Assembly: GCF_000744835.1 (NCBI RefSeq)
Contig: NZ_JQMS01000001.1
Location: 682,001-746,000, forward strand
Direction of reading: 5' to 3'
DNA length: 64,000 nt
Source of the DNA: Flavobacterium sp. 83
Lineage (GTDB): Bacteria; Bacteroidota; Bacteroidia; Flavobacteriales; Flavobacteriaceae
Shown here: in pieces, positions 6,289-11,085 of the stretch
Layout of the letters: each line of letters begins with the position of its first letter
Position numbering within the stretch: position 1 is the stretch's first letter
Position numbers and translations under genes: made by a program
Notes under the pieces: generated by a model
The model's database searches: none
What the model was told of the DNA's origin: nothing
The model's input: the letters and a program-made list of their open reading frames with translations, nothing else

Positions 6289-6813
6289 ATGCGTAAAGAA
6301 GATTGTTTCTATTTAGGTAAAATCGCTAAAAAATTTAGTTTCAAAGGAGAAGTTCTTGCCTATTTAGACACGGACGAACCTGAGTTATACGAAAACTTGG
6401 AATCAGTGTTTGTTGAATGCAACAAACACTTGGTTCCTTTTTTTATTGAAAATAGTTCGCTACACAAAAACGACTTTCTTAGAATTCGTTTTGAAGATAT
6501 GAATACCGAAGAAGATGCTGATGCTATTATAGGCAACGCCATTTATCTTCCCTTAAATATGTTGCCAAAACTTACCGGCAATAAATTCTACTTCCATGAA
6601 GTTATTGGTTTTGAAGTCGAAGACAAACGCTTAGGCGTTGTTGGAAAAATTGAATCCATAAATGACACTACCGCCCAACCTCTTTTTGAAGTTTTAAACG
6701 GTGATGTAGAAATTCTCATTCCCATGATTGATCATTTCTTGATAAAAATCGACAGAGAAAACAAAAAAGTCGTTATGGATTTACCAGAAGGATTGATCGA
6801 AATGTACCTATAA
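6289..6813 (+). CDS. rimM: Ribosome maturation factor RimM
   Basis: A 174-aa 30S assembly factor. The N-terminal RimM barrel begins DCFYLGKIAKKFSFKGEV, with the typical glycine-lysine pair of the family, and the C-terminal PRC-like barrel includes YFHEVIGFEVED and VEILIPMIDHFLIKIDRENKKVVMDLPEGL. It is of normal length and 15 bp behind rpsP, so both are in one operon; trmN6 follows after 55 bp. No defects. Confidence 0.96.
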   Translation: MRKEDCFYLGKIAKKFSFKGEVLAYLDTDEPELYENLESVFVECNKHLVPFFIENSSLHKNDFLRIRFEDMNTEEDADAIIGNAIYLPLNMLPKLTGNKFYFHEVIGFEVEDKRLGVVGKIESINDTTAQPLFEVLNGDVEILIPMIDHFLIKIDRENKKVVMDLPEGLIEMYL

Positions 6814-6868: not shown

Positions 6869-7582
6869 ATGTCCAAATTCCAATTCAAACAATTCTCTCT
6901 TGAACAAGATCGTTGTGCCATGAAAATTGGAACCGACGGTGTTTTACTTGGCGCTTGGACACCAATTGAAAACAATCCATTTAGCATTTTAGATATTGGA
7001 GCCGGAACTGGAATTATCGCTTTAATGCTTGCGCAAAGAAGCAACGCAGAACAAATTGACGCTTTGGAAATCGACGAAGAAGCCTACGAACAATCCGTAG
7101 ACAATTTTGAAAACTCCCCTTGGAGTGATCGCCTATTTTGCTTTCATGCCGGTCTGGATGAATTTGTAGAAGAACCAGAAGACGAGTACGATTTAATTGT
7201 TTCCAATCCTCCATTTTACACTGAAGATTACAAATCCCAAAACGAACAACGCGACTTAGCCCGTTTTACTGATGCGATGCCTTTTGAAGATTTAATTGAA
7301 GCGGCTGACTTGTTACTTTCTGAAAACGGTATTTTCACAGTAATAATTCCTTTTAAAGAAGAAGAACTTTTTTTGGCTCTTGCCGCGGCATACGAATTAT
7401 TTCCTTTGAAAATCACTCACGTAAAAGGAACCCCAACTACCGAAATCAAGCGAAGTTTATTGGCTTTTAGCCGAAATGAAAATACCATCGTTACTATTGA
7501 TGAATTAATTATTGAAACTTCAAGACATCAATACACACCCGAATACATCGAATTGACAAAAGATTTTTACTTGAAAATGTAA
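6869..7582 (+). CDS. trmN6: tRNA1(Val) A37 N6-methyltransferase
   Basis: SAM-dependent methyltransferase of the YfiC/TrmN6 family, 237 aa. The SAM-binding loop LDIGAGTGII is at residues 41-50 and the N6-adenine motif SNPPFY at 112-117. It is predicted to modify A37 of tRNA-Val. The last 62 bp around and past its stop codon recur almost exactly at 9626-9687, which marks this 3' end as an insertion site for the islet that follows. The gene itself is full length, so if an element inserted here it either restored or preserved the coding end. Confidence 0.92.
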   Translation: MSKFQFKQFSLEQDRCAMKIGTDGVLLGAWTPIENNPFSILDIGAGTGIIALMLAQRSNAEQIDALEIDEEAYEQSVDNFENSPWSDRLFCFHAGLDEFVEEPEDEYDLIVSNPPFYTEDYKSQNEQRDLARFTDAMPFEDLIEAADLLLSENGIFTVIIPFKEEELFLALAAAYELFPLKITHVKGTPTTEIKRSLLAFSRNENTIVTIDELIIETSRHQYTPEYIELTKDFYLKM

Positions 7583-7602
7583 TTTGGAATTTTATCCAAA
7601 TA
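7541..7602 (+). repeat. Direct repeat, left copy (3' end of trmN6)
   Basis: These 62 bp, running from GAATACATCGAATTGAC to ATCCAAATA, match 9626-9687 with a single difference (T at 7592, C at 9677). They cover the last 13 codons of trmN6, its stop and 20 bp beyond. Similarity falls off sharply on both sides, as at an attachment or recombination site. Confidence 0.9.
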
Positions 7603-7684
7603 CATTAACTCCCTTATTTAAATAAATTTCGAATCTCAATTTGCCCTCTTTCCAAATAATGGAAGAGATAGGTATAGCTCTCAG

Positions 7685-8788
7685 TCATAAGGTGGTTTTT
7701 GGAAGTTTTAAAAAAGGAATGCTATCAAGAGCATCATATTTACCAATAATTTTTTTATCTTTATCTAATACAAAATAGGCGGGGATTGTTGAAATAATTG
7801 AGCGTATATTATCATTTCCTTTATTTTTGTTAATGAGAAAACCCTTCCATTTATAATTTTCTTTTTTATGGTATAACAACCAGCGATCCTTATCTTCATC
7901 TATGCTTAAAGATATTATTTGAATTTTAGAAGTATCAATCTTTGAATAGTTTTTATTTATTTCTCTTGCTTGAATTATGCAATATTTACACCAACTGGCA
8001 CCAAAATCCAAAACGTATTTTTCTTTATTTGATTCAAAAATACTTTCACTTTTTACTGTTTTTTGCCCACTATTAATAACTTTAAAATCCATAAAACGTT
8101 CTCCTATTTGTGAATTTTTCCTGTTTTTGAAATATTCTTGCAAAGTGTTATAGACGAAAGTGTTTTTAAAATTTTCTCTCAAAGATTCTAAACATTTTAA
8201 AAGTGTATTGTTTGAGAGATTTCTGCTGTTTTCATAAAGCTTTATAGTTGAATAATACTTATCTGAGTTTTCATTAATCCAATTATAAAATTGTTTCTCA
8301 TAGTTTGCCAAGTAAAGATAATCTTTGTCTCTTGAGTTAACAATGCCATATTTAGATATTTGCAAGTTAACATTCAGATTTCTATTGTATGGAAAAACGT
8401 ATTTTGAATGATTTTTTTCGAAAAAATCATTTTCACCACCATTAACTATTATTCGTTTTTTAGTTATTTCATCCCAATCATTCCAAACAATATATATGGA
8501 ATCATTTGTAGCGATAAATTGTACACTATTATTTTTATTTTTAATGATTCCTATAAAGCTTTCCTTCGTTTTTGTCTTAAAACGGAGCAAATTATTTCTT
8601 TTCACGCAAGAATCTATTACTATTGCTGTATAGTCTAAAAGAAGTTTGTGCAAATAAAAAACTTCTCCATCAGGTATTTTAGAAATATTAAATTTTACAG
8701 TTACATTTATAGAATACGGAGTGTTAAATTTATTAGATGATTTTTGACAGCTTACTATTAATAAAAAAAGCAAATAATATTTTTTCAT
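7685..8788 (-). CDS. Lipoprotein with DUF4369-like and thioredoxin (TlpA) domains
   Basis: A 367-aa predicted lipoprotein: signal peptide MKKYYLLFLLIVSC with the lipid-carrying Cys at 14. Residues ~28-100 look like the DUF4369 domain often found ahead of TlpA modules in Bacteroidetes; residues ~230-360 form a thioredoxin-like fold with WCKYC (Cys267, Cys270) and a cis-Pro loop TIPAYFVLD. It is probably an envelope thiol-disulfide reductase. It is the only intact gene of the islet, very AT-rich, lysine- and asparagine-heavy, and transcribed away from the regulator remnant. A Cys-rich peptide frame lies upstream on the same strand, a possible substrate or linked product (inference). Confidence 0.8.
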   Translation of the reverse strand: MKKYYLLFLLIVSCQKSSNKFNTPYSINVTVKFNISKIPDGEVFYLHKLLLDYTAIVIDSCVKRNNLLRFKTKTKESFIGIIKNKNNSVQFIATNDSIYIVWNDWDEITKKRIIVNGGENDFFEKNHSKYVFPYNRNLNVNLQISKYGIVNSRDKDYLYLANYEKQFYNWINENSDKYYSTIKLYENSRNLSNNTLLKCLESLRENFKNTFVYNTLQEYFKNRKNSQIGERFMDFKVINSGQKTVKSESIFESNKEKYVLDFGASWCKYCIIQAREINKNYSKIDTSKIQIISLSIDEDKDRWLLYHKKENYKWKGFLINKNKGNDNIRSIISTIPAYFVLDKDKKIIGKYDALDSIPFLKLPKTTL

Positions 8789-8889
8789 AAGTTTAAGTGA
8801 TATATTGACCCTAGCTTTTTTAAAAGTACGGTTTTTTTTAATGCTTTTTTACTTTATGTTAAATTTTAGTAGCACCAATTTTATATGAT

Positions 8890-8931
8890 AGTAAATGATT
8901 ATAATAGATGAATCTATTATAATCATTTACT
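8890..8931. repeat. Perfect 20-bp inverted repeat with 2-nt centre
   Basis: AGTAAATGATTATAATAGAT (8890-8909), centre GA, then its exact reverse complement (8912-8931). It lies between the lipoprotein start and the Cys-rich peptide frame. On the plus strand it runs into GCTTTATTTTTTTAATT, so it could be a terminator; on the minus strand it would sit just after the peptide stop. Its perfection suggests selection or recent origin. Confidence 0.8.
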
Positions 8932-8942
8932 GCTTTATTTTT

Positions 8943-9077
8943 TTAATTCCCTCGACAACTGCTACTAGTGTATCCACTACAACCACAGTTGAAACAAATC
9001 TCTTTTAAGACCGTTTTTATCTCTTTTAAACTTATTTTTTTTATTTTAGATAATCTAATTAATAAGGAAATAAACCA
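8943..9077 (-). other. Cys-rich peptide-like open frame without ATG start
   Basis: An open frame of 44 codons ending at a TAA (8943-8945). The last 33 codons read IKKISLKEIKTVLKEICFNC then GCSGYTSSSCRGN. A charged, leader-like SLKEIKTVLKEI stretch followed by four Cys among Gly/Ser/Asn is the look of bacteriocin-like or RiPP precursors in Bacteroidetes. There is no ATG, GTG or TTG in frame: the leader would need to begin at an ATA (9042-9044) or ATT, so the gene may have lost its start or be a chance frame. A TAnnTTTG element (TACATTTG, 9128-9135, minus) lies upstream. The redox lipoprotein is next downstream. Low confidence as a working gene. Confidence 0.35.
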
Positions 9078-9232
9078 TCAAACTCCCATTTCAAGAAACG
9101 ACCCTGGCACTTGGCTTTCTATAAAAACAAATGTAAGAATAATTGTTCAAATTTACATTTAAAATTAATTCTCGAAATCCTTTTTTCGTCATAATAAAAG
9201 CATAATTGCTGTTTTTGGTAAAATTGTCTCTT

Positions 9233-9560
9233 ATGATAAAACAAAAACTAACCAATATGCGTGTTGCAAGGAAGCCTTTCTCAAGAAAAAATTGAAGATT
9301 CACTTGGAACATCCCAATCACAATATGATTGCCGAGAAAATGGACTTACTAAAATATCCAAGAAGGAATGTGATAAAATCGCAAAAGTTCTTGATACACC
9401 TTTAGAAAACATTTACGAACCCGAAGATGGTATTTATGTACTGAATAATGAAAGTGTAAGTGGAGATTATTAGGGTAGTCAGAATAATTTTCATAATTAC
9501 CTAACCACATAGTAGAGACTACAAGAAAATTCGTATAAAAATTAGAAGAAATTAAAGCAT
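9233..9560 (+). pseudogene. Decayed XRE-family helix-turn-helix regulator
   Basis: ATG at 9233 opens MIKQKLTNMRVA, then a frameshift near 9268 moves the rest to another frame: GSLSQEKIEDSLGTSQSQYD, ENGLTKISKKECDKIAKVLD, TPLENIYEPEDGIYVLNNES, VSGDY and a stop at 9471-9473. Past this stop the frame still resembles the family tail (GSQNNFHNY) but has several more stops. Flavobacterial HTH proteins of this type (LSQE..A..LG.SQSQY.RRENG) are usually ~110-120 aa with a C-terminal coiled coil. The helix 3 consensus Arg-Arg reads Asp-Cys here. It is a broken gene, probably the former regulator of the islet. Confidence 0.75.
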
Positions 9561-9592
9561 TGAGAGACAATTTTGCAAAACTTCTCTTTTTA

Positions 9593-9667
9593 GTAGTCGA
9601 GGCCGCCAGACACATCTATACCCCAGAATACATCGAATTGACAAAAGATTTTTACTTGAAAATGTAA
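9593..9667 (+). pseudogene. Orphan 3' end of a trmN6-like gene
   Basis: The frame VVEAARHIYTPEYIELTKDF followed by YLKM and a stop aligns with the C-terminus of TrmN6 (SRHQYTPEYIELTKDF, YLKM). The last 13 codons are identical at DNA level, while upstream codons differ in DNA but still encode similar residues. So this is a fragment of a diverged trmN6, not a simple duplication made in place. Confidence 0.85.
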
Positions 9668-9687
9668 TTTGGAATTCTATCCAAATA
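9626..9687 (+). repeat. Direct repeat, right copy
   Basis: Matches 7541-7602 with one mismatch in 62 bp; offset 2,085 bp. Together the two copies frame the accessory islet. Confidence 0.9.
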
Positions 9688-9876
9688 ACTCAACTTCCAT
9701 ATTTAAAATAAATTGCAAGCTACAATTCCTGATTTTATCGTAAATTGGTACAATACTTATTCCTTCCATTAAAATTACGCTTTAATAAACACCTTAATTA
9801 ATTGTAACGTTTCGTTATTTTGAATAAAAATATAAAAATATAACATTTATTAATACTTTTGTTATATTTCTTTATG

Positions 9877-9884
9877 TAAATTTG
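9877..9884 (+). promoter_or_regulatory. -7 element upstream of acyl-CoA dehydrogenase
   Basis: TAAATTTG matches the TAnnTTTG consensus and sits 22 bp ahead of the start codon. A TTTG occurs upstream but at 15 bp spacing rather than 19, so the -33 part is uncertain. Confidence 0.45.
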
Positions 9885-9906
9885 CGTCATATAAAATTAC
9901 CAAACC

Positions 9907-11085
9907 ATGAAACCAGACTTATTTCAAGCTCCAGACTATTATAACCTAGACGATTTACTAACAGAAGAACACAAATTAGTTCGTGATTCTGCCCGTGCAT
10001 GGGTAAAACGCGAAGTCTCTCCTATTATAGAAGAATATGCTCAAAAAGCAGAATTTCCAAAACAAATCATAAAAGGTTTGGGTGAAATTGGCGGTTTTGG
10101 CCCATATATTCCAGAAGAATATGGTGGTGCAGGTCTAGACCAAATTTCGTATGGGTTAATTATGCAAGAAATTGAACGTGGAGATTCTGGTGTTCGTTCA
10201 ACTTCATCTGTACAATCCTCTTTGGTTATGTATCCTATTTGGAAATACGGAAACGAAGAACAACGCATGAAATACTTACCAAAACTGGCCACTGGTGAAT
10301 TTATGGGCTGCTTTGGATTAACGGAACCCAATTACGGTTCTGACCCTGGAAGTATGATTACAAACTTTAAAGACATGGGCGATCATTATTTACTGAATGG
10401 TGCCAAAATGTGGATTTCGAATGCACCATTTGCAGATATTGCCATTGTGTGGGCAAAAAATGAAGAAGGAAGAATTCACGGTTTAATTGTTGAAAGAGGA
10501 ATGGAAGGTTTTACCACTCCGGAAACACATAACAAATGGTCCCTTCGTGCCTCTTCTACAGGAGAGTTGATTTTTGATAATGTTAAAGTACCAAAAGAAA
10601 ATTTATTGCCAAATAAATCTGGATTAGGAGCACCGCTGGGTTGTCTTGATTCTGCACGTTACGGAATTGCTTGGGGAGCCATAGGTGCCGCAATGGATTG
10701 CTATGACACAGCATTGCGTTATGCAAAAGAAAGAATCCAGTTTGACAAACCTATTGCAGGAACTCAATTGCAACAAAAGAAATTAGCTGAAATGATTACT
10801 GAAATCACCAAAGCACAACTATTGACTTGGAGATTAGGCGTTTTACGAAATGAAGGAAGAGCGACAACAGCTCAAATCTCTATGGCTAAAAGAAATAATG
10901 TAGATATGGCAATACATATTGCCCGCGAAGCCAGACAAATGCTAGGCGGAATGGGAATTACCGGAGAATATTCTATTATGCGTCACATGATGAATCTGGA
11001 ATCCGTAATTACGTATGAAGGAACCCACGACATTCACTTACTAATCACAGGAATGGACATTACTGGAATTCCAGCTTTCAAATAG
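9907..11085 (+). CDS. Acyl-CoA dehydrogenase, glutaryl-CoA dehydrogenase-like
   Basis: FAD-dependent acyl-CoA dehydrogenase of 392 aa. Visible are the FAD/substrate motif GCFGLTEPNYGSDPGSM, MWISNAPFADIAIVWAK, and the C-terminal YEGTHDIHLLITG with Glu371 in the position of the catalytic base of glutaryl-CoA dehydrogenases. The family oxidises glutaryl-CoA to crotonyl-CoA in lysine/tryptophan breakdown; in Bacteroidetes the true substrate of this orthologue is often untested. Monocistronic, with a -7 element upstream and a strong terminator downstream. Subfamily is likely, exact substrate uncertain. Confidence 0.85.
   Translation: MKPDLFQAPDYYNLDDLLTEEHKLVRDSARAWVKREVSPIIEEYAQKAEFPKQIIKGLGEIGGFGPYIPEEYGGAGLDQISYGLIMQEIERGDSGVRSTSSVQSSLVMYPIWKYGNEEQRMKYLPKLATGEFMGCFGLTEPNYGSDPGSMITNFKDMGDHYLLNGAKMWISNAPFADIAIVWAKNEEGRIHGLIVERGMEGFTTPETHNKWSLRASSTGELIFDNVKVPKENLLPNKSGLGAPLGCLDSARYGIAWGAIGAAMDCYDTALRYAKERIQFDKPIAGTQLQQKKLAEMITEITKAQLLTWRLGVLRNEGRATTAQISMAKRNNVDMAIHIAREARQMLGGMGITGEYSIMRHMMNLESVITYEGTHDIHLLITGMDITGIPAFK

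Follow-up and report, generated by a model that had tools for sequence, protein, structure and literature searches.

Three kinds of described system resemble the locus reported here. In Escherichia coli K-12, prophage e14 occupies the 3′ end of icd: the gene has been rebuilt with a substitute 3′ end, and the displaced end, icdC, stands on the far side of the prophage as 165 bp carrying 12 exchanges, as the cited passages describe it (PMC11148124, PMC6379469). Cis-mobilizable elements (CIMEs) are described, within the cited part of the work on tandem accretion with ICEs and IMEs (integrative and conjugative, and integrative and mobilizable, elements), as carrying no integration genes, keeping gene-end repeats and forming layers at one site (PMC5704250). 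For hotspots without mobile elements, the cited section proposes turnover by recombination in core genes (PMC5635113). How integrase-less hotspots acquire genes is an open question. Here we analyze 64,000 nt of Flavobacterium sp. 83 (contig NZ_JQMS01000001.1, positions 682,001 to 746,000; hereafter the window), in which a small accessory islet lies between trmN6 and an acyl-CoA dehydrogenase gene (acd), framed by a direct repeat of the trmN6 3′ end. Comparison with other Flavobacterium genomes suggests repeated DNA entry at trmN6 without a recognizable integration enzyme.

The trmN6 end repeat and its empty sites

The repeat is 62 nt long, its copies agree at 61 of 62 bases and their starts lie 2,085 nt apart, confirming the direct repeat of the trmN6 3′ end reported in the initial annotation. 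Wider homology around it covers 114 nt at 83% likeness (7523-7636 and 9608-9721). A search with its first 50 nt, allowing up to three mismatches, found no third site in the window (0 expected, from 100 shuffles), and an Rfam scan of 7400-9950 gave no RNA family match at the repeat. The GC content between the copies is 26.8%, compared with 34.2% for the whole window and 37.7% for trmN6. The codons left of the right copy read VVEAARHIYTP at the place where intact trmN6 reads IIETSRHQYTP, with many third-position changes; judged from sequence, this is a pattern as in another functional allele, unlike random decay. The fragment terminated by the right copy aligns to TrmN6 residues 207-237 in one program and 213-237 in another.

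Quick single-gene trees of trmN6, rimM and acd served as the phylogeny. The window stands beside locus L031 in the trees of trmN6 (Shimodaira-Hasegawa-like approximate likelihood ratio test, SH-aLRT, 94) and rimM (SH-aLRT 91), and with L031 and L128 in that of acd (SH-aLRT 99); the intact trmN6 is therefore native. Site by site, the left copy agrees with L031 and L128 before codon 225. From codon 225 to 9 bases past the stop the two copies are identical, with one difference up to +20; from +20 to +60 each resembles native sequence, the left copy a little more closely, and from about 60 bp past the stop through to acd the right copy agrees with the relatives. The right copy had been proposed to lie beside a different trmN6 allele, and this stands in a refined form: it is foreign only left of about 9625 (codon 225), and identical or native-like beyond.

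Close relatives carry a single copy of the gene end with a trmN6-acd spacing of 232-239 bp, that is, an empty site, and the window measures 239 bp from the stop of its right copy. These empty sites bear out the proposal of insertion at the 3′ end of a protein gene. The interval differs among relatives, and the right copy is no plain duplicate; local tandem duplication of the same allele was accordingly rejected, since the tail belongs to another allele and empty sites exist. Among 80 named neighbourhoods, 26 have an interval of at most 300 bp, 4 carry a trmN6 tail, another 26 have a wider interval that yielded no tail, and in 24 acd lies outside the stretch covered. Three of four further close relatives, chosen deliberately, are empty, and the fourth, L127, holds a thioredoxin-domain cargo gene and no tail. 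Tail-less islets are common, which every explanation has to accommodate. No acd tails were seen among the loci compared.

Recurrence across Flavobacterium

A 60-residue C-terminal TrmN6 query was searched against 398 Flavobacterium genomes, 386 of which gave at least one match. More than one match was obtained in 20, and in 15 the second match was linked, lying downstream on the same contig and strand at a distance of about 35 nt to 11.6 kb; all 15 of these tails are 5′-truncated and run to the last residue or stop. The remaining five (G064, G085, G179, G243 and G274) were dropped, their second match being on another contig (E 0.011-0.032), and G147 (E 0.04) was retained, with 65 of 75 bases matching its own gene end. 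The loci of 14 tail-bearing genomes, one genome per species, were compared besides the window. The islets of G223 and G317 are nearly the same, and one identical tail occurs in both G415 and G256, so that about 13 histories are represented; L035 (F. limicola), from the named set, adds one tail-bearing case. The 98 loci assembled in all are 95 distinct ones, L114, L120 and L122 duplicating L042, L041 and L033. The comparison of this interval in many genomes, as the initial annotation had proposed, yielded both empty sites and a recurrent scar with different cargo. In 147 genomes of other genera of the family, 127 of which gave a first match, there was no second match, in a search that would miss short distant tails.

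The tails range from about 17 codons to the entire gene, and the cargo, 1-12 kb in size, is varied: it includes thioredoxin-domain proteins (window, L116, L117), an erythromycin-esterase-domain protein, an S41 peptidase, a Porph_ging protein, CarbopepD_reg_2 and proteins without a Pfam match. Two loci are layered. Outward from the intact trmN6 of L112 come cargo, then a displaced piece of trmN6, then a second cargo related to the first, and finally an older tail. L041 has a tail with an 828-aa cargo gene on one side and the S41 peptidase gene on the other, and the flank of that peptidase gene stands directly behind the intact trmN6 of L119. From this order, the newest cargo seems to insert beside trmN6, with older ends pushed outward.

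The incoming trmN6 copy of L035 is longer by an in-frame stretch that includes SELAQQ. Comparable stretches occur in the tail common to L111 and L112 and in that of L124, and among intact genes in only 2 of the 98 loci (95 distinct), L043 and L098. The displaced middle copy of L112 covers the same place and lacks the stretch, so three of four independent tails have it. By this comparison, the tails are often not copies of the host's own trmN6. At L124:1-240, no more than about 35 nt separates two trmN6 ends, and a SELAKQ remnant lies in that gap, perhaps what is left of an islet almost wholly deleted.

Two controls addressed gene specificity. Among 1,051 open reading frames (ORFs) of at least 150 aa, drawn from the window and the 80 named loci, five trmN6 genes had a truncated end copy, as against none of about 970 other ORFs. 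Counting one trmN6 for each of 81 neighbourhoods, the Fisher p value is 2.4e-6, with denominators that are approximate because an open trmN6 passed a strict test in 73 of the 81. In the window's own genome (window plus 20 stretches, 464 kb, 308 ORFs), a truncated end copy was found for trmN6 only. Truncated end copies as a general habit of the genes of this genus or genome were seen in neither control. Two other direct repeats were recorded: an exact one of 44 bp in the window (42746 and 43811), within a repetitive long reading frame, which looks like ordinary repeated domains, and an exact one of 1,001 bp elsewhere in the same genome (L158:3886 and L158:5188), its copies about 1.3 kb apart.

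Mode of entry

We regard as settled the insertion relative to empty sites, the native left gene, the foreign tail and the recurrence at one gene. The explanation we favour, with a probability of roughly 0.52, is that tail-carrying DNA integrates by a single crossover in the 3′ part of trmN6, probably through homologous recombination and with no integrase needed. The incoming DNA would bring its cargo together with a trmN6 tail of its own, and one reciprocal crossover between this tail and the 3′ part of the resident gene would follow. On the rimM side, trmN6 would be rebuilt intact from its native 5′ part and the incoming 3′ end; on the acd side, the incoming tail would be left joined to the native 3′ end. 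The incoming molecule would be circular, or else linear with tails at both ends. Ordinary RecA-type homologous recombination would have the tail as its sole homology, and no integrase would therefore be required.

The crossover points were examined where the allele switches inside trmN6, as it does in L035 and in the right copy of the window. L035 has an empty sister, L032, and its islet ends on the right with a second trmN6 that is full-length but decayed. At differing sites, its left copy mostly matches L032 up to about codon 221, and its right copy mostly matches L032 from about codon 222 on, through the flank. The two copies are largely reciprocal hybrids, as one crossover between the resident gene and an incoming copy would leave; such near-reciprocal hybrids in F. 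limicola, and the stacked layers, we likewise count as established. In L033 the gene is native to its stop, and the tail is foreign to about codon 231 and native again only towards acd. Foreign sequence to about codon 231 in L033, as against native sequence from about codon 222 in L035, argues that the crossover does not fall at one fixed point.

Several observations weigh against this explanation. The first 16 or so codons of L035 favour the right copy, as do scattered sites elsewhere, and its hybrid is not clean. L033 may have received its islet whole, in which case the fixed-point argument fails. Most switch intervals overlap in approximately the last 25 codons, which is what an attachment site would produce; most tails, however, are scarcely longer than that. 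In the window, the left switch point cannot be placed, because both copies resemble native sequence from the stop to +60. Finally, the negative result for a tyrosine integrase (0 of 98 loci) was obtained with a homemade profile over limited flanks, and serine recombinases and transposases were not searched for. That profile was built from the ten tyrosine recombinases of the window's genome and applied at a threshold of 1e-4; run on the 20 stretches of that genome, it recovered one of those ten. Of the 98 loci, 62 reach at least 9 kb downstream of trmN6 and 4 reach less than 2 kb, so that larger elements would be missed.

The main rival to homologous recombination of tail-bearing DNA is that an integrase targets the trmN6 3′ end, with the repeats as its attL and attR, the enzyme having been lost or acting in trans, and with CIME-like accretion of layers. 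We consider it unlikely and prefer homologous recombination, even though much of the anatomy would suit an integrase. As in the portions of the e14/icd accounts cited, the gene end is duplicated, the gene rebuilt and the displaced end found on the far side (PMC11148124, PMC6379469); a single gene is affected, layers stack beside it, the blocks of identity overlap in the last 25 codons, and the window's genome has ten tyrosine recombinases that could act in trans. Against this stand the 98 loci without a recognized integrase, tails that extend up to the whole gene and crossover points that differ. Phage, plasmid and viral collections gave no match linking them to the trmN6 gene end, by which an origin of the gene end from such elements was rejected, and the loci and collections searched yielded no integrase-bearing partner element for this site. 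The integrase-type element envisaged by the initial annotation is thus not supported so far, with no integrase-bearing version in the 98 loci, tails of varying length and crossovers that do not look fixed; its interpretation overall is partly supported.

Homology-facilitated illegitimate recombination would instead combine a left crossover in trmN6 or rimM with a random right join inside the resident trmN6, making the right tail the old resident gene. Variable tail starts suit a random join, the cargo lacks mobile genes, and between -120 and -60 the right copy of L042 resembles native sequence slightly more closely than its left copy does. We nevertheless judge it improbable, since it predicts a native right copy, whereas that of the window is foreign before codon 225 and that of L035 mostly foreign to about codon 221. 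Least probable to us is that the scar was made once elsewhere and that the window received a ready-made islet whole, through double homologous recombination in flanking core genes. Turnover of this kind has been proposed, in the section cited, for hotspots without mobile elements (PMC5635113); it would fit the pattern of L033 (native gene to the stop, foreign tail, native towards acd) and the 26 of 80 named loci with larger intervals in which no tail was found. In the window, however, native-like sequence begins at codon 225 of the right copy and continues to acd, so that the right crossover would have to fall within the tail, and the first origin of the scar would be left unexplained.

A broader proposal, which we put forward only tentatively and with doubt, is that there is a class of integrase-free mobile islets that move by using a piece of one housekeeping gene, which they carry, as a homology handle. 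The tail would recombine with the trmN6 of any host, rebuild the gene, leave a new direct repeat and stay excisable and re-insertable; some of the tails would come from a particular allele seldom found in intact genes. If this is true, other integrase-less islets of bacteria could be of the same kind. A single gene end here records many separate entries in graded tails, stacked layers and hybrid copies, and homologous and site-specific entry could therefore be distinguished by experiment.

Cargo, neighbouring DNA and comparison with known systems

The features of the window locus are collected in Table 1. Of the 367-aa cargo protein, PF00578 (4.2e-10) and PF13905 (6.9e-8) score above cut-off and PF14289 below it; by its sequence, it is a predicted TlpA-like lipoprotein. 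At 1e-20, with at most five candidates scored per genome, none of 397 other genomes yielded a relative, and past 7644 the islet DNA has no match among the loci compared. A cargo common to the islets was rejected, because this main gene lacks a relative at that threshold and the islet DNA matches other loci only over its first 62 bp. The neighbouring open frame ends in KKISLKEIKTVLKEICFNCGCSGYTSSSCRGN and is possibly a decayed peptide precursor. Past the stop of the helix-turn-helix fragment, more decayed codons can be read by eye to about 9585. A PADLOC run on 10 cargo proteins gave no defence-gene match.

Table 1. Coordinates of the trmN6 islet of the window and its flanks
Feature	Position	Strand	Description
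rimM	6289..6813	+	Left conserved neighbour; TIGR02273 (E 9.8e-28, above cut-off); PF01782, PF24986
Intact native trmN6	6869..7582	+	Best NCBIfam model NF047853 (TrmN), full length, 249 bits, short of the curated 350-bit cut-off; sister to L031 in trmN6 tree
Left repeat copy	7541..7602	+	Final 13 codons of trmN6, stop and 20 bp
First 62 bp 3′ of trmN6	7583..7644	+	Resembles native trmN6-acd spacer of L031 (86%) and L128 (79%)
Cargo gene, 367 aa	7685..8788	-	DUF4369-like N-terminus, AhpC/TSA-thioredoxin C-terminus
Open frame with Cys-rich end (ICFNCGCSGYTSSSCRGN)	8943..9077	-	No start codon seen; beside TlpA-like gene
Helix-turn-helix regulator fragment, 70 aa	9261..9473	+	PF01381 (1.2e-7, above cut-off)
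Foreign trmN6 tail	9588..9625	+	Another allele, from roughly codon 212 to 224; left boundary approximate
Right repeat copy	9626..9687	+	62 nt, one mismatch to left copy
Spacer to acd	9668..9906	+	239 bp; native from about 60 bp past stop
acd (acyl-CoA dehydrogenase gene)	9907..11085	+	Right conserved neighbour; PF02771, PF00441, PF02770

Further observations concern the islets and their surroundings. In L116, L117, L127 and the window, the first cargo behind trmN6 is a thioredoxin-domain gene, each on the opposite strand and dissimilar in sequence. Within the window islet, 8890-8931 forms a perfect, AT-rich 20-bp inverted repeat with arms 2 bp apart. The rimM-trmN6 gap, compared over L031-L128, is mostly below 300 bp, with a subset of about 570-830 bp (L031, 583; L033, 832; L111, 631) scattered over lineages. 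In many Flavobacterium (L040, L045, L047, L051 and others), the trmN6-acd interval holds a peptide export locus with double-glycine leader peptides. Its ORF clusters comprise a C39-peptidase ABC exporter (27 ORFs), HlyD (14) and VKOR with a C39 match (18); the L040 interval includes a SPASM-domain protein, and small Cys-containing peptides with a double-glycine leader were present in four of six loci examined. Because the insertion site coincides with this export locus in many Flavobacterium, the cargo may matter in strain competition.

No paper on trmN6 as an insertion site was found among the open-licence papers searched, so earlier publication is possible. With e14 and icd, as far as the cited passages describe them, the islet shares an intact gene, an end duplicated at the far side and a single-copy empty site in relatives; unlike e14, a 15-kb prophage with an integrase gene, the trmN6 islets are 1-12 kb long, have no recognized integrase and carry tails of very different lengths. 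Like the CIMEs of the source cited above, they keep their end repeats and form tandem layers (L112, L041), and no integration genes were found in them; in contrast to CIMEs, no integrase-bearing partner for the trmN6 site was found, and the crossover point does not look fixed. The hotspots without mobile elements, in the part of that work cited, likewise show variable accessory genes between core genes, no integrase and allele switches in a flanking gene. The model given there relies on homology on both sides, whereas at trmN6 a single gene end seems to provide the homology for both and persists as a direct repeat. What appears distinctive of the trmN6 islets is the combination of one gene end as apparently the sole homology used, graded tail lengths and entry for which no enzyme was found.

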